Source: Candidatus Krumholzibacteriia bacterium (GTDB taxonomy: Bacteria; Krumholzibacteriota; Krumholzibacteriia; LZORAL124-64-63). From it: a stretch of 33,365 nucleotides of DNA. The first letter of the stretch is position 1; the number at the start of each line of letters is the position of its first letter. A program made the position numbers and the translations under genes. Where the stretch lies: NCBI GenBank assembly GCA_024762975.1, contig JANTGJ010000023.1, positions 1 through 33,365 on the forward strand, read 5' to 3'. Positions 13,341 to 25,442 of this stretch are shown piece after piece. The notes beneath the pieces were generated by a model. That model did no database searches, was not told the DNA's origin, and saw only the letters and a list, made by a program, of their open reading frames with translations.

Positions 13341-15494
13341 CTAGTTGTGGCGGTAGCGAGCGCCCACGAACAGTGTGAAGCGATCGTTGTTGGTGACCGG
13401 GTTGATGCTCAGCGTTTCGTCCATGTCCGTGGCGATGCGGTACATCGAAAGTCGGGATGTCAGGTCGAAGTTCTCACCGAGCGGTTTGGAGGCAAAGGCG
13501 TTCAATTGGAAGGTCGTGGGATGTCGTTGGACGACCTCGTCGACGGTGATCGCCCCGGTGCCGGTATCCACGTCGAACTGGTTGGTGTAGACGAATCCGT
13601 AGTCGTAGGAGGTATCCAGTGTCATGTGAATTTTTGCGGGCAATTCGAAATTGCCCTCTGCCTTGAATCCGACGCGAATCAGGTTGCCGTCCTGCTGGAT
13701 GACCTTCGAGCCCTTGGCGGCCACCAGATGCACTCCGACCGTGGGGCCGAATCGCAGATTCCCGCGCACCCAGCCGTAGCGGCCGTAGAGATCCACCACG
13801 TAGGGTTTGGCGACCGAGGTGGAATCACTCTCGCCCGGTTTGTGCCACAGCCGCGAATAGACGTTCAGATCGAAGAAGTGCTCGTCCTGTGTGCGGCTGC
13901 GATTCAGGCGCAGATCGGTGTAGTTGTTGTCGGAATTGTCCGGGTAGAAGTTCGTGTAGGTGGTCAACGAGCGGCGCAAGGTCGCGTCACCCGTCTTGTC
14001 ACGCTGCCAGGCGGCTTTCAACTGCGCATAGGTCGCCAATTCGTTGTCGGGAAAATTCTTGTGCGTCAGGGCATAGGCCGAACGATTGCGCCGGGGGCCG
14101 TCACGATAGCTCTTCTCATACGCCAGTTGCGCCCGGCCGAAGCTGCGCAAGGCGGCTTCACTGTACTCCAGCGATTCGTAGACGCCGCGCCAGGTGGTTC
14201 GGCCGGCTCCCTTGCGCTTGCTGTACTCCAGCGAAGGGGTCAGATGGGTGAAGTCGTGGAAGTCGGCGTCACTGCTTTCGAAAACACCGAGCAGGCGCGC
14301 CCGCAACTGGGCTCCGGCGCCGCGTGTCCAGCGGCCCGATAGGTCCAGTGCGTGACTATCGAAATCCTCCGAGGCGACCTCTTCGAAGGCCTTCCGCGTG
14401 AAGCCGTAGTCGAGGTGGTAGTCGTGACCGGCGCCCCGCTTGTCGGAGGTGGCCGAAAATTTCGTGCGTCGAAAATCATTCTCCGAGTTCAGGTCGTCGG
14501 TGTAGGAGTAGGTGTCGACCGCGAAGTCCAGGTCGGTCGTGTCGCTCCACTTCCTGGCATAGCCGGCACCGGCGGTACGCGTTTTGTACGCGGTCTGATT
14601 GACCTCGTTCTTGTTCGAGAAGCTGGCCCGCAGGCTGGAGCTCTCGTTCAGATCCAGCTCGCCGCCCAGCTCGATCTGTTGCAGTGATTCGTCGACCTCG
14701 TTTTTCTCCTGGTCGCGATCGGTGCCTCGTACGACCAGCGTCGTGGTCGTAAATTTGGAGGTGCCCAGCAACAGGTCGGCATAGGCCGAGAGGTTCTCCA
14801 GAAAAGCCCGTTCGTTCTTCAGGCTGAAGTCGTAACTCACGATGTACTTCTGATAGAAGTGGTGGGCGTAGGTCTGATATTCGGCGATACGGGCGTGGGC
14901 GCCGCGTGCCCGGAGCCGGTCGTTCTTCCCGGTCAGTGGAGATTCGCCCTTCTCGGGCAACAGTCCGGACAGGAGGGCATCGGCCGATTGCATGTCTTCG
15001 TCGATCCCCGCCAACAGCTCTTCGATGACGATCGCGTAGCGCCGCAACTGCTGTGGATCGGCGCCCAGGAAGCTGAGTTCGTCCGTCTTGCGCTGTTGCT
15101 CGAAACGCTGCAATGCCGATTCGTCGATCCAGCCGGTACGACCGTCGCCGAGGTCAATCCGTACGAGGTTGTCGTCCTCGTCCAGGATCTCGTACTCGTT
15201 GTTCAGATTCGGCTGAAGAATGCCCCGCGATTCGGGGCTGCGCGCCTCGCGCACCTGCGAGCTGACGGTGACGATCCGTCCCATCGGCACCGTCTCCGTG
15301 CCTGGTGAGACCTCGGGCTCCATGCTCTTGAGTACGGAAAGGAGGGCGAGGGATTTCTGACGAGCGGCCGTCTCGAGGTCCTGCAATTCACGCAGATCCT
15401 GACTCGGCCCGGCCAGCACGGGGGTCGCCAGTACCAGTAGCGCACAAAGAACGGCACTCCCCGCCCGAGGATAGGAGAGTCGAGGTCTTCTCAT
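13341..15494 (-). CDS. Exported protein with SH3-like domain, helical region and outer-membrane beta-barrel
   Basis: A 717-residue protein. The ATG at 15494 is preferred over an upstream in-frame start at 15551 because it has AGGA at good spacing and gives a standard signal peptide (MRRPRLSYPRAG..., cleavage near 'PVLA|GPS'). Residues about 30-60 are helical. Residues about 70-135 resemble a bacterial SH3 domain (VTVSSQVREARSPES...DGRTGWIDESAL), usually a peptidoglycan-binding module. Residues about 145-245 are helical. From about 250 to the end there are many alternating amphipathic strands with Arg/Tyr/Asp-rich turns, as in a large outer-membrane barrel (for example VDLYGRYGWVRGNLRFGPTV and FTLFVGARYRHN). 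It is the first gene of a two-gene operon. It could anchor, export or display the downstream Ig-like protein. The exact family is not recognised. Confidence 0.75.
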   Translation of the reverse strand: MRRPRLSYPRAGSAVLCALLVLATPVLAGPSQDLRELQDLETAARQKSLALLSVLKSMEPEVSPGTETVPMGRIVTVSSQVREARSPESRGILQPNLNNEYEILDEDDNLVRIDLGDGRTGWIDESALQRFEQQRKTDELSFLGADPQQLRRYAIVIEELLAGIDEDMQSADALLSGLLPEKGESPLTGKNDRLRARGAHARIAEYQTYAHHFYQKYIVSYDFSLKNERAFLENLSAYADLLLGTSKFTTTTLVVRGTDRDQEKNEVDESLQQIELGGELDLNESSSLRASFSNKNEVNQTAYKTRTAGAGYARKWSDTTDLDFAVDTYSYTDDLNSENDFRRTKFSATSDKRGAGHDYHLDYGFTRKAFEEVASEDFDSHALDLSGRWTRGAGAQLRARLLGVFESSDADFHDFTHLTPSLEYSKRKGAGRTTWRGVYESLEYSEAALRSFGRAQLAYEKSYRDGPRRNRSAYALTHKNFPDNELATYAQLKAAWQRDKTGDATLRRSLTTYTNFYPDNSDNNYTDLRLNRSRTQDEHFFDLNVYSRLWHKPGESDSTSVAKPYVVDLYGRYGWVRGNLRFGPTVGVHLVAAKGSKVIQQDGNLIRVGFKAEGNFELPAKIHMTLDTSYDYGFVYTNQFDVDTGTGAITVDEVVQRHPTTFQLNAFASKPLGENFDLTSRLSMYRIATDMDETLSINPVTNNDRFTLFVGARYRHN

Positions 15495-15539
15495 GGCGAC
15501 GTCCTTATCGGATGGATTTTGCAGTTGGACCCGATCCTG

Positions 15540-15568
15540 ATTGTTGATCAAAAAACCGAAAACGTCAA
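15540..15568 (-). promoter_or_regulatory. Candidate sigma70-type promoter for the SH3/barrel operon
   Basis: On the minus strand, -35 TTGACG (15563-15568) and -10 AACAAT (15540-15545) are separated by 17 bases. This places a start site about 40 bases before the ATG at 15494. It was found by eye; the -10 matches consensus at four of six positions. Confidence 0.4.
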
Positions 15569-15612: not shown

Positions 15613-16029
15613 TCAGAGGGAAGCGGTCCGTGACAGCTCGGCGTACTTCACACCCTTCTGTCCCCCGATTTCGACACTCATGCGCGTGATCTCGTCGGGT
15701 CGGCCCCGGAGAATGATCGTTTCGAGGCAATTGTCATGGTCGAGGTGCACGTGGGTGGTGCACAGGATGTGGATGAACTCGTTGTGCTGGATGCGATGCA
15801 GACGGTCGGTCAGTCCTCGCCGGTGGTGGTCGTAGCAGATCGTCAGCACACCGACGACTTCCTCCTCGCCGCGGTTCCAGGTCTCTTCGACCAATTGCGC
15901 CCGGATCAGGTCGCGCACCAGTTCCGAGCGCGAAGCGTAGCCGCGATCGGTGAAGCGGCGATCCAGTTCGTTCAGCAGGGAGGCCGGCAGCGAAACACTG
16001 AAGCGGATCGTCTCTGCGTTCTTCTTCAT
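15613..16029 (-). CDS. nikR: Nickel-responsive transcriptional regulator NikR
   Basis: A 138-residue protein, the usual NikR length. Residues 7-48 form the ribbon-helix-helix DNA-binding domain (IRFSVSLPASLLNELDRRF...SRSELVRDLIR). Residues 58-135 form the ACT-like metal-binding domain. Aligned with E. coli NikR, the high-affinity nickel ligands are all present: H82 (E. coli H76), H93 and H95 in 'THVHLDH' (H87, H89), and C101 (C95). NikR represses nickel-uptake genes when loaded with nickel. It is the last gene of the operon it is predicted to control, three bases after nikO, so autoregulation through the operator at 20146-20172 is expected. The strong motif match makes the identification secure. 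Confidence 0.95.
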   Translation of the reverse strand: MKKNAETIRFSVSLPASLLNELDRRFTDRGYASRSELVRDLIRAQLVEETWNRGEEEVVGVLTICYDHHRRGLTDRLHRIQHNEFIHILCTTHVHLDHDNCLETIILRGRPDEITRMSVEIGGQKGVKYAELSRTASL

Positions 16030-16032
16030 GGC

Positions 16033-16809
16033 TCAATCCCAGTCGTGGGTGTGGTAGTGGCGATGCGTCACTTCGCCGCTGCGATGAACATGGTCGTGGA
16101 TGTGCACCAGATTCGCGCGCGTGAGCAGCTCCATGTCGTCGCGCAGCGCGAGCACATCGCCGTCGTAGAGCAGCGTATGGTCTTCGCCCAGCAACAGGCA
16201 GCGGGTGCCCAGCTCACTGGCCAGGCTCAGGTTGTGCGAACTGGTGATCACGGTGGCGTCCAGGCCGCGCAAGAAGTCGACGAGCCAGCCGGTGCTCCGT
16301 GGATCGAGGCTGGAGGTCGGCTCGTCCAGCAGCAGCAGATCGGGTTCGAGAGCCAGCAGCAGAGCCAGGCAGACGCGTTGCTTTTCGCCGTTGCTGAGTG
16401 CGTGGGGCGAGCGGTCCAGCAACTTCCCGACACGCAGTTCGCCGGCCCAGAATTCGACGCTGGCGTCGACCTCCTTGCGCCCGAAGTGTCGCGGACCGAA
16501 AGCCAGCTCGTCGCGTACCGTCGAGTGGAAGAGCATCGCGTCGGGATTCTGGAAAAGCAGTCCGCAACGGCGCCGCACCTCGCGCCGCCAGGCGGCATCG
16601 CCGCTCATGCCGGACAGGTCGCGGCCCCAGAGGGAGACGCTGCCGCGGTCCGGTTCGATCAGTCCGTTCAGAATCTTCAACAGGGTGGATTTGCCACTGC
16701 CGTTGCAGCCCAGCAATGCGATTTTCTGGCCCGGTTCCACGGAGAACGAGATCTCGCGCAGCGCCTGGATCCCCTCGTGGTCATGGCTCAGTTCTTCAAC
16801 CTTGATCAA
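16033..16809 (-). CDS. nikO: Nickel ECF transporter ATP-binding protein NikO (CbiO-like)
   Basis: A 258-residue ABC ATPase of the energy-coupling-factor type that drives nickel import. Motifs: Walker A GCNGSGKST (34-42), Q-loop Q87 in 'LLFQNPD', signature LSNGE (138-142), Walker B with D162 and E163 in 'LLLLDEP', and H-loop H192. The 'FQNPD..LF..TV..ELAFGP' stretch is typical of CbiO/EcfA. The C-terminus is unusual: eight histidines lie in the last 23 residues (HIHDHVH...THRHYHTHD), a likely metal-binding or sensing tail. The start overlaps the end of nikQ by 14 bases. The choice of nickel over cobalt rests on the linked nikR, nikK and nikL. Confidence 0.92.
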   Translation of the reverse strand: MIKVEELSHDHEGIQALREISFSVEPGQKIALLGCNGSGKSTLLKILNGLIEPDRGSVSLWGRDLSGMSGDAAWRREVRRRCGLLFQNPDAMLFHSTVRDELAFGPRHFGRKEVDASVEFWAGELRVGKLLDRSPHALSNGEKQRVCLALLLALEPDLLLLDEPTSSLDPRSTGWLVDFLRGLDATVITSSHNLSLASELGTRCLLLGEDHTLLYDGDVLALRDDMELLTRANLVHIHDHVHRSGEVTHRHYHTHDWD

Positions 16810-17356
16810 GGAAGAACCCCCGGGATGTCATGCCTTGGGTCAACTCTTCGGAGGATTGCTCCGCGCGATGCAGGAACGAGGCCCCGACCGACGCGCCCAG
16901 TTGCACACTGTCGCGCACTGCGGGCCGGCGGCACATGCGGCTGCGCGCGGCCTGCCGGATATCGGTCAGCAGGCGCCGATAGACCTGCACCTGGGCCCGG
17001 ATCAAAACGAAGAGGGTCTGCAGTCGAGGAGCGATTGCCAGGGCGCTCTCGAAGTTCACGTTCGCCGCAGCGGTAGATGTCAGCAGCGTGAGGGTGAACA
17101 CACGCAGGTTGAGTCGCGCGAGCGCAATCCAGGGGACATCGCCCTCCAACGCGGCCGAGACGGCCCACGCAGCCGAGACCAGGCCTGCGAAGAATGCTGT
17201 CGCCAGGATCGCACGCCGTGCCAGGCGCGGTGCTTGCCGGCCGCCGGCAATCAGCACCACGATCGCTCCGGCCGTCAGCCAACGCATCTGCTGTGTCATC
17301 GACAGGAACAGCAACGCCGCGAGGTAGATGATCAGGCCGGTACGGTCACGTGTCAT
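16796..17356 (-). CDS. nikQ: Nickel ECF transporter T-component NikQ (CbiQ-like), short form
   Basis: A 186-residue membrane protein, shorter than the roughly 220-260 residues usual for CbiQ/NikQ. Hydrophobic segments lie at about 8-20, 26-38, 49-66 and 84-100. The coupling region that contacts the ATPase is present, with Arg-rich helices ('RLLTDIRQAARSRM') and a late 'LTQGMTSRGF' that matches the conserved 'A..SRGF' end of CbiQ proteins. It is the energy-coupling membrane subunit between NikM and NikO. It overlaps nikM by 11 bases and nikO by 14, typical of tightly coupled operons. The shortness lies in the N-terminal membrane part; a different start is not available because the ATG is close to the nikM stop. 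Confidence 0.85.
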   Translation of the reverse strand: MTRDRTGLIIYLAALLFLSMTQQMRWLTAGAIVVLIAGGRQAPRLARRAILATAFFAGLVSAAWAVSAALEGDVPWIALARLNLRVFTLTLLTSTAAANVNFESALAIAPRLQTLFVLIRAQVQVYRRLLTDIRQAARSRMCRRPAVRDSVQLGASVGASFLHRAEQSSEELTQGMTSRGFFLDQG

Positions 17357-18005
17357 CGGTCGCCTCCGGCTGTGGCTTTTTTTCCCGAAAAAAGCGGACC
17401 CCCAGGATCGTCAGCATCCCTTCCCCGACGCCGAGCGCCAGATGGGGCAGGATCAACGCCGGCAATGCGACCGACAGGCCAAAGGGGAAATACTGCGGTG
17501 TGCCGGCCGCGTCATGGGCGATCGACGGCTGGATTCCCAGAACGAACCCGACCAGTGCCGAGGGCAGGACCACGGCCAGCCAGCCGACCACGAACATCCT
17601 GATGCGTTCGGGCGCAGGGCGCAACCATCGCAGGGCCAGCGAGGCGGTCAGCGTTCCGGCGCCGGCGATACACAGGATATTGACCGGTAACGCCGTGACT
17701 CCGCCGTCGCCCAGCAGGAAGGCCTGCATCGCGAAGACCAGCGACAGGGAGAGGAAGGCCAGTCGTGCCCCGAACAACACGGTCAACAACCCGGTAAAGA
17801 TCAGGTGTACCGACGAACCGCCCGGTAGCGGAATCGTCACCAGGGAGAGAACGAAGGCCGCTGCAGTCAGAACCGAGAGGCGAGGAATCGTCCTGGTTTC
17901 CAGCAGGTTGCCGGCCCGTCGCAGGCTGAATCCCCAGGCCGCGGCGGCGAGGCCCCAGCTGGGCAGAAAAACCTGCGGGGCGATGAATCCGTCCGGGATG
18001 TGCAT
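17346..18005 (-). CDS. nikM: Nickel ECF transporter substrate-binding membrane protein NikM (CbiM-like)
   Basis: A 219-residue polytopic protein beginning MHIPDGFI, the family hallmark. In characterised NikM proteins nickel is held by the N-terminal Met1-His2 and by His67; here M1, H2 and H67 (in 'GGSSVHLIF') fall at the same positions. This also fixes the start codon at 18005, although the frame is open further upstream. Around six hydrophobic segments follow (for example LTAAAFVLSLVTIPL, FGLSVALPALILPHLALGVGEGML). The C-terminus is 'VRFFREKKPQPEATDDT' with no NikN fusion; the separate NikL and NikK proteins upstream probably replace NikN. It starts 14 bases after the outer-membrane barrel gene. 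Confidence 0.93.
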   Translation of the reverse strand: MHIPDGFIAPQVFLPSWGLAAAAWGFSLRRAGNLLETRTIPRLSVLTAAAFVLSLVTIPLPGGSSVHLIFTGLLTVLFGARLAFLSLSLVFAMQAFLLGDGGVTALPVNILCIAGAGTLTASLALRWLRPAPERIRMFVVGWLAVVLPSALVGFVLGIQPSIAHDAAGTPQYFPFGLSVALPALILPHLALGVGEGMLTILGVRFFREKKPQPEATDDT

Positions 18006-18019
18006 CTTCGTCCTACCTT

Positions 18020-19003
18020 CTAGAAGAGCGTCGACCAGGTGGCCACGAAGCGTCCCTTTTCCGTACCTTCGGCTCCCTGCTGGAGGGATTCTTCGTTCAG
18101 ATCGGTCCAGATCGGCTGTTTCCAGCCCAGGCCCAGGCTGGACGAGCCGATATACGCTCGCAGGCCCGGCAGGGCGTAGATGATTCTTCCTCCGGTGGCC
18201 TCCTCGCCGACCCCGTTCACCTCGTCCCGGCTCAGCGCCAGGCCGTTCGCTTCGAGACTGGTGTCCAGGCGCAGTTTCCGCTTCGCATCCGTCAGCACCC
18301 GCAGTGTCCAGGCAGTATTCAGTCGCCACTCGGTGCCGAACTTCACCTGTTGGCCATCGTCATATTCGTTCTTCTGGAATCCGATCCATGAGACATCCGC
18401 CACCAGCGTGGAGCGGGTGCCGACCGTTTTCGTGGTCGTCCAGCCGGCCATGAACGAAGGCCGGCCAAACCCGAGAGACCTGCCCGGATCGATGCCGCCG
18501 TCGGCGTCGCGTAGATTCTCCTGCCCGGTGGGCAGCGTCGCGCCGCCGTAGAAGGTGAAGTGCCAGTCCTCCAGGTCGTCCAGGCTCTCGCCGGCGGGCA
18601 CCAGCCTCGGGCCGTCATCCAGCTTCCAGCCCAGCACGGCCATCAGTGCGATGTCGGCGAATCCGGCCGAGTTGAATCCATTGTCTTCGGATTTTTTCAC
18701 CGTGTAGGGGACGAAGGCGTAGATCGACCAAGCGGGAGTCAAGCCCTGGCCGACGCCATAGATCCAAAACGCGTTGGAGACACTCTCGTCGTCGCGTTCG
18801 GGGGTGTAGACCTCGAAGAGGGGGTAGTCCAGTTTCAGCGAGAACAGCCAGGCGCCGTCGGGCAAGGTGGCGGAGCTGGCGGATTCGACGGGCGCGCCGG
18901 GGCCTTCGAGGCCGGCGACTCCCAGCGAAGCTACGCCGTGGTGGGCAACGGCCGTAGCAGGCAGGGCCGCCAGGAACACGACCAGAAGGAGATGGTGTTT
19001 CAT
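18020..19003 (-). CDS. Outer-membrane beta-barrel protein inside the nickel operon
   Basis: A 327-residue protein with a signal peptide ending 'ATAVA' and a predicted mature N-terminus 'HHGVASLG'. The remainder has regularly spaced amphipathic strands (WLFSLKLDYPLFEVY, WHFTFYGGATLPTGQ, GRPSFMAGWTTTKTV, STLVADVSWIGFQKN, LRAYIGSSSLGLGWK) and ends in Phe (FVATWSTLF), as outer-membrane barrels do. The overall look is of the 'transporter / MetA-pathway phenol degradation-like' barrel group. The ATG at 19003 overlaps the nikL stop (ATGA), and nikM follows 14 bases later, so it is a full member of the NikR-controlled operon. A role as an outer-membrane nickel channel is inferred from this position; no TonB box or plug domain is visible. 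Confidence 0.8.
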   Translation of the reverse strand: MKHHLLLVVFLAALPATAVAHHGVASLGVAGLEGPGAPVESASSATLPDGAWLFSLKLDYPLFEVYTPERDDESVSNAFWIYGVGQGLTPAWSIYAFVPYTVKKSEDNGFNSAGFADIALMAVLGWKLDDGPRLVPAGESLDDLEDWHFTFYGGATLPTGQENLRDADGGIDPGRSLGFGRPSFMAGWTTTKTVGTRSTLVADVSWIGFQKNEYDDGQQVKFGTEWRLNTAWTLRVLTDAKRKLRLDTSLEANGLALSRDEVNGVGEEATGGRIIYALPGLRAYIGSSSLGLGWKQPIWTDLNEESLQQGAEGTEKGRFVATWSTLF

Positions 19004-19422
19004 GATTCGCTCCTGGAACGCCAGTACATCGCACCGCCGAGCAGGGCCACGATGGCCACACCGATCAGGATGCGCAGTCCTCGATTCGGACCTCGGTCGC
19101 CGCTGATGACCGCCGGATGCAGGTCCTGGACCTGGATCGTGGCGGTCAGGCCATGTCCGTCCTCGGAGAATACCTTGACGGTCCATTCCCCGATCCGGTC
19201 GGGCACGAAGGAGACGCGGCCGTGCTTGTCCGTTCTCCCCACCTGGTGCGGCGTGCGGTCTCCGGGGCCGAAGATTTCCGAGCTCTCGAAAGCGAACGGG
19301 CGACCGTCGGCGGTCTTGACCTCGACGGTTCGGGACGCTCCTTCATGGACGACGTAGTCGATCTCGTGGGCCGGGGCCGCGACTGCGACCAGCAGGAATA
19401 CCAGGACAGCAAGCAGCCTCAT
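19000..19422 (-). CDS. nikL: Nickel transport accessory protein NikL-like
   Basis: A 140-residue protein: signal peptide (MRLLAVLVFLLVAVAAPA), mature start 'HEIDYVVHEG', a single Ig-like/carboxypeptidase-regulatory-type beta domain (about 25-98, with 'GRTDKHGRVSFVPDRIGEWTVKVFSEDGHG'), and one C-terminal membrane helix (about 116-134, GLRILIGVAIVALLGGAMYW). This is the architecture of NikL, which together with NikK accompanies NikMQO in systems lacking NikN. It starts four bases after nikK ends and overlaps the next gene by four bases. Histidines at the mature N-terminus and in 'EDGHG' could hand nickel to NikM. The name is based on architecture and context rather than a diagnostic motif. Confidence 0.75.
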   Translation of the reverse strand: MRLLAVLVFLLVAVAAPAHEIDYVVHEGASRTVEVKTADGRPFAFESSEIFGPGDRTPHQVGRTDKHGRVSFVPDRIGEWTVKVFSEDGHGLTATIQVQDLHPAVISGDRGPNRGLRILIGVAIVALLGGAMYWRSRSES

Positions 19423-20145: not shown

Positions 20146-20172
20146 GTGTTACGAATGGCGAACCCGTAACAC
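20146..20172 (-). promoter_or_regulatory. NikR operator GTGTTAC-N13-GTAACAC
   Basis: Perfect inverted half-sites at 20146-20152 and 20166-20172 are separated by 13 bases; extending each by one base (GTGTTACG/CGTAACAC) keeps the symmetry. Known NikR operators are two short inverted half-sites of this type and spacing, and the delta-proteobacterial consensus is, to my knowledge, the same sequence. The site starts two bases downstream of the candidate -10 and ends before the nikK start, so bound NikR would block transcription. Confidence 0.88.
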
Positions 20173-20289: not shown

Positions 20290-20796
20290 ATGAAGAAGTT
20301 GATGCTTTGGGCACTGTTGTTGACCCTGGCTGCCCCCGCTCATGCGGTCGAACCGGTGCCGACCGGCTCATTCCAGTTCAGCTTTGCGGTCGAGATCCCC
20401 GCGACACCGAACGAGGTCTTCGATGCCGCGACGGGCGATATCTCTGCCTGGTGGGATCACTCGATGAGCGAGCATCCTGTCGAACTGATCATCGAACCGA
20501 CACCGGGTGGCCGTTTTCTCGAGATCATGGACTCCCGAGGCGGGGGAGTCGTGCACGCGAGGGTCACGCAGGTCCAGTACGGCAAGATGCTCCGCCTGGT
20601 CGGTCCTCTCGGTCTGGCCGGTCACGCGATCAACATGGTGACGACCTGGACGCTGGAGCCGGCCGGAGACCAGGCCACGAAATTCACGGTCGAGGTCCAC
20701 GCCACGGGTGAGATGCACGAGGGCTGGGGTGAGGCGGTCGAGGAGACCTGGCGACATTTCATCGAGGGTCGGCTGTTGCCCTATCTTGAAAAATAG
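20290..20796 (+). CDS. Exported SRPBCC (AHSA1/START-like) domain protein
   Basis: A 168-residue protein with a strong ribosome-binding site (GGGAGGG) and a signal peptide ending 'APAHA|VEP'. The mature part is one SRPBCC-type domain: 'FSFAVEIPATPNEVFDAATGDISAWWDHS', then 'IEPTPGGRFLEI', 'VVHARVTQVQYGKMLRLVGPLG', 'TTWTLEP...TKFTVEVHATGEMHEGWGEAVEETWRHFIEGRLLPYLEK', matching the activator-of-Hsp90/polyketide-cyclase-like fold that binds hydrophobic ligands. Most relatives are cytosolic, so an exported copy is unusual. It is divergent from the nickel operon and shares the same intergenic region, so NikR might also affect it. Ligand and function are unknown. Confidence 0.8.
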   Translation: MKKLMLWALLLTLAAPAHAVEPVPTGSFQFSFAVEIPATPNEVFDAATGDISAWWDHSMSEHPVELIIEPTPGGRFLEIMDSRGGGVVHARVTQVQYGKMLRLVGPLGLAGHAINMVTTWTLEPAGDQATKFTVEVHATGEMHEGWGEAVEETWRHFIEGRLLPYLEK

Positions 20797-21800: not shown

Positions 21801-23285
21801 CTACTTGAGCAGCAGGACCTTTTGGACCCGGGTCACGGCCTCACCCTGCAAGCGAACGACGTAGGCGCCGGAGCTGACTCCGCGACCGGCATCATCCCGG
21901 CCATTCCAATGCAATGTGGTCCAGCCGGGAGTGTAGACCTGATCGGCCAGCATGCGTACGCGGCGTCCATCGATCCCATAGACTTCGGCCCGGATGTGCT
22001 GGGCGGATTCCAGCTGGAAACGAATGTGCGTCGTAGGGTTGAACGGATTCGGCGCGGCTTGCACACCTTCGATACTCAGGACCCGCGGCAGTTCCGGGGC
22101 CGGCTGCTGCACGCCCCGATCACCGGCGCATCCGGCCAGCCAGGCACCCATGACGCCGCATTCCCCGTCGGTGACGACAGGCGATTCAACATCCACGTTG
22201 AAGCTCAGTCCGTCTTCCATACTGCAAAAGAGCGGGTCGACCGAGAGATTGTCGTTGGAGTCGCCGGCATCTGCCGGGAGTCCGATCAGGTCGCCACCGC
22301 TGTTGCCGTGTACATTGCTGCAGGCCAACTGGACTTCGGCGCCGGAGACCGCTTCGATACCACTGCCGTCCTGGAAGGCGAGGATGCTGGATTCGACGAC
22401 CGATACCGCACCGTTGCTGAACAGGCCCGCGCCCTCGGGCGCCGCATTCTGCGTCAACGTGCAGTGCTCCAGAAATGCCGGGGCATTGGGCAGCGCTGCG
22501 ATGGCGCCACCATGGTCGGCGCGGTTGCCGTAGAATGTCGAGTAGCGATATTCCGGTCGTGAGTCGAAGAACGAAACGGCGCCGCCACCATAGGCGACCT
22601 GGCCATCGCTGCGGTTGCTGTAGAACGCGCCGCGCAATACGTGGGGGTCGGACTGACCCCGCGAGGCGATCGCGCCGCCCCAGGCCGACAGGTTCTGGCG
22701 GAAAGTGCAATCCTCCAACCAGGGTGAGGCCTCGTAGCTACAGTCGAGCGCGCCGCCGCCACCGAGCAGAGCGGTATTGCCGACGAACTCGCAATCGGTG
22801 AAGGTGGGAGTTGCCCGCATCACACGCACCGCGCCGCCGTGGGTCTCGGCCCGGTTGTTCGTGAATCGGCATTCGGTGAGATCCAGTTTGGCCTGGTTGA
22901 TGAAAATCGCGCCGCCGCTCTTGCCGTAGCTGTTCTTTCCACGGGCCCAGCCGTTCTGGAAGGTGATGCGGTTGATGCGGCTGGTCGGCCCCGGTTCGCA
23001 GGCCATCAAAATGCGTGCGTGGCCCTGGCCATCGATCACCGTGCGGGATGGATCCTCGTCCACGCCGGCCAACAGGACCCCGGCTTTCAGGTAGAGGCCC
23101 GTTTCCTGGTACAGACCCGGCTGTACTTCGACGCGATCGCCCGCGCGGGCGGCGTTCAGGGCCGAACCGATGGTGGAAAATTCGGTGGGGACACGGAGAG
23201 TGGCGGCCTGGGCCAAGCCGACGGTCAGCGCACTCCAGGCGACCAGAATCGAGACGCCGAGGGTCAGAATTTTTCCATGCGCCAA
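21801..23285 (-). CDS. Exported right-handed beta-helix protein with C-terminal sorting-type domain (paralogue 1)
   Basis: A 494-residue protein. No ATG fits; the start is TTG at 23285, supported by GGAGG six bases before it and by the signal peptide that follows (VSILVAWSALTVGLAQA|ATLRVP). Residues about 28-375 are a right-handed parallel beta-helix with repeated 'GGA', 'DC.F..N' and 'FYGNRADHGGAI' turns, as in polymorphic outer-membrane or pectate-lyase-like proteins. Residues about 405-494 form a FlgD-like/T9SS type A sorting-type domain (APNPFNPTTHIRFQL..., GIDGRRVRML, SSGAYVVRL, VLLLK). It is likely secreted and held on the surface. It is a close paralogue of the gene at 23967-25442, including at DNA level in the helix region. 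No catalytic site was recognised. Confidence 0.85.
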   Translation of the reverse strand: MAHGKILTLGVSILVAWSALTVGLAQAATLRVPTEFSTIGSALNAARAGDRVEVQPGLYQETGLYLKAGVLLAGVDEDPSRTVIDGQGHARILMACEPGPTSRINRITFQNGWARGKNSYGKSGGAIFINQAKLDLTECRFTNNRAETHGGAVRVMRATPTFTDCEFVGNTALLGGGGALDCSYEASPWLEDCTFRQNLSAWGGAIASRGQSDPHVLRGAFYSNRSDGQVAYGGGAVSFFDSRPEYRYSTFYGNRADHGGAIAALPNAPAFLEHCTLTQNAAPEGAGLFSNGAVSVVESSILAFQDGSGIEAVSGAEVQLACSNVHGNSGGDLIGLPADAGDSNDNLSVDPLFCSMEDGLSFNVDVESPVVTDGECGVMGAWLAGCAGDRGVQQPAPELPRVLSIEGVQAAPNPFNPTTHIRFQLESAQHIRAEVYGIDGRRVRMLADQVYTPGWTTLHWNGRDDAGRGVSSGAYVVRLQGEAVTRVQKVLLLK

Positions 23286-23959: not shown

Positions 23960-23985
23960 GCTGGCGCTACTTCAAGAGCGCCAGC
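23960..23985. terminator. Hairpin between convergent fibronectin-like and beta-helix genes
   Basis: Nine-base perfect arms (GCTGGCGCT/AGCGCCAGC) around an 8-base loop, overlapping the last codons of the minus-strand gene. No T-run follows on either strand, so terminator function is uncertain. Confidence 0.4.
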
Positions 23986-25442
23986 TTATAGGTGAGAGTC
24001 TCGATCTCGCTGTGCATCCGTACCAGATAGGCTCCCGAACCGAGTCGCCGACCGTTGTCATCCCGCCCGTCCCAGTCCATGAAGTTCTGCCCGACCGGAT
24101 ATACGCGGTCGCCCAGGTGCCGGACCCGTCGGCCGTCGATGCTGTAGATCTCGGTCACGATGCGCTGTGCGGTTTCCAGTTCGAAATGGATCCGGGTCGA
24201 CGGATTGAACGGGTTCGGTGAAGCCTGCAGATTGTCGATGGTTCGGGCCTGTGGCGTATCGTCGGCCGGCAGGGTGTCCTGACCGTCGGAGCAGGCCGGC
24301 ACCCAAGCGCCGATCGTTCCGCAGGAGCCATCGGTGACACATTCCGATTCGACGGCCAGATTGAAGCTCAAGCCCCGCTCATCCATGCTGCAGAACATCG
24401 GATCGGCCGACAGGTTGCCGTACAATTCACCGATGTCGGGCGCGAATCCGACCAGATCTCCGCCGCTGTTGCCGTGAACGTTGGTACAACCCATCTGCAG
24501 GGCGTTGGGGCCTTCGGTGGTCAGGCCGGGACCTTCCTGGAATGCGACGATGCACGATAGCACCGCCGAGATCGCATCCTGGTTGTAGATGGCGGCGCCG
24601 TTGTCGGCGGCGTTGCGGGTCAAGGTGCAGTGCTCGAGGTAGACCGGCGATCCCGGCAGTGCGGCAAGTGCTCCGCCCAGGTCCGAGCGGTTGCCGTAGA
24701 AGGAGCTGTAGCGGAAAACGGGATCGGAATCGAAGAACGAGACCACCGCTCCGCCGTAGGCCTGCTGACCATCGCTGCGATTGCTCTGGAAATCTCCGCG
24801 TACGATTTCCGGAGTCGACCGGCCGCGAATGGCCAGGGCGCCGCCCCAGGCAGCAAAGTTCTGATGGAAGCTGCAGTCCTCAATCACGGGGGAGGCCTCG
24901 TAGCTGCAATCGAGCGCGCCGCCGCCGCCGAGCAGGGCGGTATTGCCGATGAAGTCGCAACGCGTCAGCGAGGGGGACGAGCGCAGAACGCGTATGGCCC
25001 CGCCATGCCCGTCGGCTCGATTATTCCGAAATTTGCAGTCGTTGATTTCAATCTTTGCCTGTTGGATGAGAATCGCGCCACCGCTTCGTTCGTAGGAATT
25101 CTTGCCCCGGGCCCACCCGTTCTGGAAGGTCAGCCGCAGCACGCGTCCGAGTTGTCCCGGCGTGCACGCCGACAGGATGCGCCCCCGTCCCTGGCCGTCG
25201 ATGATGGTCTGCTCCGGATCGGTCCCCACACCCGCGAGAATCACGCCGTCGCGGATCCGAAGGCCATGTTCGAGGTACAGTCCGGGAGCGACTTCGACTC
25301 GGTCGCCGGCCACGGCAAGCGTCAAGGCCGCGCCGATCGTTTCGTATTGCTGGGGAACCTGCAAGGTCGCTGCCGAAGCGTTGCCGAGGGCCAGTAGAAC
25401 CAGGATCATGGCGCCGATCGAAGTGGGTCGAATGCTGCTCAT
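23967..25442 (-). CDS. Exported right-handed beta-helix protein with C-terminal sorting-type domain (paralogue 2)
   Basis: A 491-residue protein, ATG at 25442 with GGAGGAA before it and a signal peptide ending near 'GNASA|ATLQVP'. It has the same plan as the gene at 21801-23285: a parallel beta-helix (about 27-375, with 'GGGGALDCSYEASPVIEDCSFHQN', split here as GGGGALDCSYEASP then VIEDCSFHQN, and 'SSFYGNRSDLGGALAALPGSP') and a C-terminal FlgD-like/T9SS type A sorting-type domain (ASPNPFNPSTRIHFEL, SIDGRRVRHLGDRVYPVG, GSGAYLVRM, KLALLK). The two proteins align without large gaps and arose by duplication. It is probably surface-attached or secreted; enzymatic activity is not evident. It appears to have its own promoter and a long leader. 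Confidence 0.85.
   Translation of the reverse strand: MSSIRPTSIGAMILVLLALGNASAATLQVPQQYETIGAALTLAVAGDRVEVAPGLYLEHGLRIRDGVILAGVGTDPEQTIIDGQGRGRILSACTPGQLGRVLRLTFQNGWARGKNSYERSGGAILIQQAKIEINDCKFRNNRADGHGGAIRVLRSSPSLTRCDFIGNTALLGGGGALDCSYEASPVIEDCSFHQNFAAWGGALAIRGRSTPEIVRGDFQSNRSDGQQAYGGAVVSFFDSDPVFRYSSFYGNRSDLGGALAALPGSPVYLEHCTLTRNAADNGAAIYNQDAISAVLSCIVAFQEGPGLTTEGPNALQMGCTNVHGNSGGDLVGFAPDIGELYGNLSADPMFCSMDERGLSFNLAVESECVTDGSCGTIGAWVPACSDGQDTLPADDTPQARTIDNLQASPNPFNPSTRIHFELETAQRIVTEIYSIDGRRVRHLGDRVYPVGQNFMDWDGRDDNGRRLGSGAYLVRMHSEIETLTYKLALLK

Follow-up and report, generated by a model that had tools for sequence, protein, structure and literature searches.

We have discovered that a family of predicted outer-membrane barrel proteins is encoded within nickel uptake operons, and that this arrangement recurs in many bacterial phyla. 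The barrel is probably a dedicated outer-membrane component of the NikK-type nickel uptake system. Its link to nickel uptake is strong, and a role in outer-membrane entry is the best reading that we infer from the sequence results. How nickel crosses the outer membrane is unsettled for bacteria that have NikKLMQO or HupE but lack a TonB-dependent nickel receptor, and few candidates are known. The barrel family provides a concrete, genetically linked candidate that is present in cultured organisms. If its proposed role is correct, a COG4313 barrel, whose family has been linked until now with hydrophobic compounds, would enter metal uptake.

The window, i.e. the whole stretch of 33,365 nucleotides that was analysed, carries an operon with the order nikK-nikL-barrel-nikM-nikQ-nikO-nikR and the following features:

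20146..20172, no strand assigned: NikR operator GTGTTAC-N13-GTAACAC, perfect (consensus from PMC545781)
19427..20122, minus strand: nikK, secreted, His after the signal peptide, DUF4198-like
19000..19422, minus strand: nikL, sub-threshold profile matches and conserved order
18020..19003, minus strand: outer-membrane barrel gene, PF13557/COG4313 type, 327 aa, candidate nickel entry channel
17346..18005, minus strand: nikM, CbiM family substrate-binding membrane protein (Pfam CbiM above cut-off)
16796..17356, minus strand: nikQ, weak CbiQ match and conserved order
16033..16809, minus strand: nikO, ATPase (Pfam ABC_tran above cut-off)
15613..16029, minus strand: nikR, regulator (Pfam NikR_C and three NCBIfam NikR models above cut-off)

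The barrel reading frame begins with an ATG at 19003, its stop codon ends at 18020, and the product is predicted to be secreted; the sequence AGGAG was read by eye just 5' of the ATG. As the sequence-only reading had placed it, the gene lies between nikL (19422-19000), which it overlaps by 4 bp, and nikM, whose start at 18005 follows the barrel stop after a 14-bp gap. The names NikK, NikL and NikQ were assigned from sub-threshold profile matches together with conserved gene order: NikK and NikL both match Pfam DUF4198 below the cut-off, the NCBIfam NikL model scores 38.5 bits (cut-off 100) and the NCBIfam CbiQ model scores 16.5 bits (cut-off 111.8). With nikK, nikL, nikM, nikQ, nikO and a NikR operator all present, the locus has the make-up of a NikKLMQO nickel uptake operon. 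It shares these proteins, NikR and the operator with the NikKLMQO/NikKMLQO transporters (Zhang 2009, PMC2667541; Rodionov 2004, PMC545781), which as described there are without an outer-membrane component; the term "outer membrane" has no occurrence in the available text of PMC2667541. No description of the barrel in nik operons was found in the open-licence literature.

The claim that the operon is controlled by NikR was borne out by nikR itself and by the perfect operator, which precedes the nikK ATG by 24 bp and conforms to the delta-proteobacterial NikR consensus (PMC545781). A search across all 265 contigs of the genome (3.8 Mb), with up to 3 mismatches allowed, showed this site to be unique at 0-2 mismatches, and thus no TonB receptor appears, from sequence, to be under the same operator in this genome. 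The genome has a need for nickel, since it carries a NiFe hydrogenase large-subunit gene, in which we take both cysteine motifs to be present, adjoining a small-subunit-like reading frame. A secreted SRPBCC (Polyketide_cyc2) protein is encoded divergently from nikK on the plus strand (20290-20796), with the NikR operator between both genes.

A profile built from six relatives retrieved 66 loci from public genomes. Adding the window brings the set to 67, and each locus was searched with profiles derived from the seven operon genes of the window itself. The collection relied on two conserved peptides and so recovered the close family alone, a bias that the whole-genome samples described below were run to offset. 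The 66 loci include Proteobacteria, Campylobacterota, Gemmatimonadota, Aquificota, Nitrospirota and other phyla, and the cultured organisms Rhodocyclus, Azonexus, Allochromatium and Thiorhodococcus. The sequence-only reading had pointed to gene neighbourhood as a check, and this agreed with it: nikK is directly upstream of the barrel in 63 of the 67 loci, and nikM is found downstream in 59; nikL is present in 56 and nikR in 36. In the four loci without nikK (L022, L038, L081, L082) the DNA is cut off 1-3 bp upstream, so that nikK is there in every locus whose upstream DNA is present. The order nikK-nikL-barrel-nikM-nikQ-nikO is almost fixed, although in L053 nikM is matched 1.9 kb farther downstream. 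Because the same gene order recurs across many phyla, the arrangement is not due to chance. Eight loci have no nikM (L083, L026, L029, L031, L035, L036, L043, L057); the contig ends 2 bp downstream in L083 and 611 bp downstream in L026.

Operator-like sites also occur beyond the window. Of 56 loci, 24 have a NikR-type palindrome (GT, N13/14, AC, with at most 1 mismatch between the arms) upstream of nikK, compared with 2.1 expected from mononucleotide shuffles; the 56 were taken from the 63 nikK loci after dropping 7 with an unrecognised mature start. In 21 of the 24 the palindrome is 36-70 bp from nikK, and the remaining three (L034, L036, L060), more than 100 bp upstream, are probably chance occurrences. 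Two kinds of palindrome are seen, GTGTTAC and GTATGA, both of which are published NikR consensus types (PMC545781).

In four of the loci without nikM (L031, L035, L043, L036), a HupE/UreJ nickel permease (PF04955, 158-168 bits) follows nikK and the barrel in place of nikM. In the first three of these, nikR and nikK are transcribed divergently, and in L031 and L043 the space between them contains perfect GTATGAT-N13-ATCATAC sites. In the tree, the four loci form one clade with L029 and L057 (support 100/99), nested among nikM-linked barrels. This nesting, along with the HupE loci, suggests that the inner-membrane transporter was probably swapped while nikK and the barrel stayed paired. L029 and L057, which have nikK and the barrel, show no nickel permease downstream; they are two of the six non-nikM loci with full downstream DNA, and count against a strict rule that a permease follows.

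Three whole-genome samples gave a consistent picture, in that all 16 full-length orthologues sit in nik operons (6/6, 7/7 and 3/3); 3 of the 16 come from sample-centre genomes picked for carrying the barrel, leaving 13 independent of that choice. Six were found in the order of Rhodocyclus tenuis (200 genomes), with a CbiM match 5-85 bp downstream of each. Among the 15 best-scoring CbiM loci of that sample, 7 are of the nikL type, six with the barrel and the seventh (G122) with a remnant. The seven orthologues of the Sulfurimonas class (200 genomes) all adjoin nikL and nikM, and the three of the Thiorhodococcus class (274 genomes) are all in the operon. The barrel is absent from 20 of the 27 NikM-like loci of the Sulfurimonas-class sample, all of other types: 13 have a small gene that is NikN-like and that we take to be NikN, 6 have a distant nikK or nikL, and 1 is of another kind. 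In this Campylobacterota-centred sample, the barrel therefore tracks the NikK/NikL type of nickel system. A further 98 relatives of the window's genome yielded nine matches, six of them full length; of the others, one is truncated where its contig ends (G062), one is weak (G072) and one is without its middle (G006). The last (G006:C258; L084, L007, L010) is a 256-aa barrel copy in which about 76 middle residues are missing in frame, through either a deletion or an assembly fault.

A natural case of loss was seen at G122:C75 (L118, L138), where a nikKLMQO operon that adjoins a NiFe hydrogenase operon retains only about 32 codons of the barrel, comprising the start and the last C-terminal stretch. 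Since one operon has lost the barrel and many nik systems run without it, the barrel is not indispensable.

Distant relatives do occur elsewhere. Weak PF13557 matches lie outside nik operons in all three samples: at four sites in the first, spread over 3 genomes, at one in the second and at 20 in the third. Those inspected have no nik genes within about 1.5 kb. These other contexts would suit an unrelated general porin hitch-hiking in a mobile nickel cassette. We consider such a passenger hardly credible, given that the position is kept over many phyla, that the barrel stayed with nikK through the change of inner-membrane transporter, and that among the 67 loci it never occurs without nikK where upstream DNA is present. 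The orthologous family is thus not one whose members lie mostly outside metal-uptake operons, and the neighbourhood continues to favour a dedicated outer-membrane component.

A sister family of three full-length barrels (L199, L200, L201; E about 1e-68) has the mature start AHHGG. L199 and L201 adjoin DUF3347 and DUF4198 genes, which hints that a barrel paired with a DUF4198 protein is a wider metal-entry module; neither gene was among those called around L200, where the neighbours are other secreted proteins only. In Sulfurimonas (L098), the gene next to a distant PF13557 barrel encodes a small secreted protein rich in His, which may be a further metal-related context.

The barrel fold that had been read from the sequence was upheld by a Pfam match to PF13557 (38.2 bits, cut-off 22) and by an AlphaFold2 model. 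With 61 family members as input, a 12-strand barrel was predicted with high confidence both for the full protein (by pLDDT and by pTM) and, slightly higher, for its mature form. PF13557 is matched by 33 of the 61 members at E 0.01 or better. Sequence searches of the barrel against solved structures and against plasmids gave no match. Among the solved fold matches listed, the best was the COG4313 channel Pput2725 (PDB 4rl8; Z 25.4, rmsd 2.2 over 250 residues) and the second best was FapF (Z 23.6).

FapF is a secretion channel, and its rank among those matches, along with the constancy of NikK as a neighbour while the inner-membrane partner changes, would fit a FapF-like role in which the barrel, as scaffold or export channel, positions NikK or NikL at the outer membrane or outside it and is not a passage for nickel. 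We regard this as very improbable, as NikK and NikL, both small and folded, each carry their own signal peptide and are also found in operons that lack the barrel.

The resemblance to Pput2725 bears on what an entry channel would carry. Both proteins belong to COG4313/PF13557 and have 12 strands (predicted here), although they share about 13% identity and the nickel-family barrel has a longer N-terminal segment with an invariant His-His. The COG4313 proteins known so far have links to hydrophobic molecules, in contrast to the nickel operon here, and Pput2725 conducts ions poorly in vitro, binds detergent and has been proposed to move amphipathic molecules (PMC4493636). From this fold and family, it could be argued that nickel enters through the barrel bound to a chelator or to an amphipathic ligand and not as a bare ion. 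This is unlikely in our estimation, since no gene for making or degrading a ligand recurs (the census covered the seven operon families and HupE) and the invariant His, Asp and Glu residues of the nickel-family barrel suit metal better.

Outer-membrane nickel uptake is otherwise known from the TonB-dependent receptors FrpB4, FecA3 and NikH, some of which are NikR-controlled (PMC11247825). The candidate role of the barrel is the same step, but unlike them it has no plug or receptor Pfam domain and is predicted to have 12 strands. An identification as a TonB receptor was rejected, as PF13557 is the sole Pfam match at E 1 and the predicted model has 12 strands. The barrel also has no match at E 1 to the PcoB/CopB family, whose CopB profile we take to be a Pfam family, and PcoB is not among the matches listed in the fold searches of the model, which does not speak against a similar fold. 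PcoB is a 12-strand outer-membrane barrel for copper uptake, with a proposed TonB-free entry of a divalent metal (PMC9210255); it differs in its metal, copper, and in its pco operon.

Three parts of the protein are considered further:

18944..19003, minus strand: signal peptide, residues 1-20, with predicted cleavage at A20 before H21, read from sequence
18851..18943, minus strand: N-terminal segment, residues 21-51, headed by His21-His22, likely a lumen segment, the most conserved region
18566..18619, minus strand: acidic turn and short helix (ESLDDLED), residues 129-146, facing the periplasm provided that the N-terminus does, conservation mean 0.80

The residue at -1 is Ala in 59 of 61 rows and Ser in 2, and His21-His22-Gly23 is invariant in all 61. 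Within residues 21-51, conservation reaches at least 90% at 17 of 31 positions and averages 0.81, compared with strand means of 0.57-0.71; the last long loop of the barrel is also high (0.79). Mature residues 1-10 have very low model confidence, so the His-His is not confidently placed. In the structural alignment, the stretch from mature residue 20 (Glu40, invariant) onward corresponds to Pput2725 from residue 2 (Glu2) onward, which leaves about 19 extra, unusually conserved residues ahead of the Pput2725 start. In Pput2725 itself, the N-terminus, with conserved Glu2 and Gly6, obstructs the lumen from the periplasm (PMC4493636). The earlier description of a simple barrel with neither plug nor TonB box therefore held in part: Pfam finds no TonB-receptor or plug domain, but "no plug" is doubtful because COG4313 barrels keep the N-terminus in the lumen (PMC4493636) and the matching segment is the most conserved here.

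The His start of the barrel is a striking parallel to its partners, as the mature N-terminus of NikK/DUF4198 is His and the N-terminal Met-His of NikM is invariant. NikK is a DUF4198 protein by a weak match in the window and by above-cut-off matches in relatives, and its mature form starts with His in the loci where the start is readable. Nickel binding (Kd 18 nM) through a His that signal-peptide cleavage exposes has been shown for a DUF4198 protein (PMC12537917). The barrel shares such an N-terminal His with these proteins and has NikK, of that family, as a partner; they differ from it in being a soluble domain, and neither "barrel" nor "outer membrane" occurs in the available text of PMC12537917.

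The proposal of an outer-membrane nickel channel is thus backed by operon, fold and neighbourhood, with nickel transport itself a step beyond such results. Nickel, free or as a small chelate, would diffuse through the barrel without TonB energy, and the His-His-headed segment and carboxylates would hold it. NikK, with its N-terminal His, and NikL would pick it up on the periplasmic side and deliver it to the inner-membrane transporter, which is NikMQO or, in a single clade, HupE, and NikR would close the whole path when nickel is plentiful. More tentatively, we hypothesize that the N-terminal histidines might make the channel metal-selective: the lumen segment begins with a His-His freed by cleavage, and the free N-terminus and two histidines might catch nickel and start an N-terminal-His relay from the barrel to NikK and on to NikM or HupE. 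This mechanism is possible, though we would not favour it.

Elsewhere in the window, a large secreted protein downstream of nikR (13341-15551, minus strand) has barrel-like sequence and a weak SH3_3-like stretch (E 0.23), with no Pfam match at 0.01. Beyond the operator, a tandem pair of similar secreted repeat proteins (21801-23285 and 23967-25442, minus strand) has, as read by eye, right-handed-helix-like repeats and an FlgD-like C-terminus.
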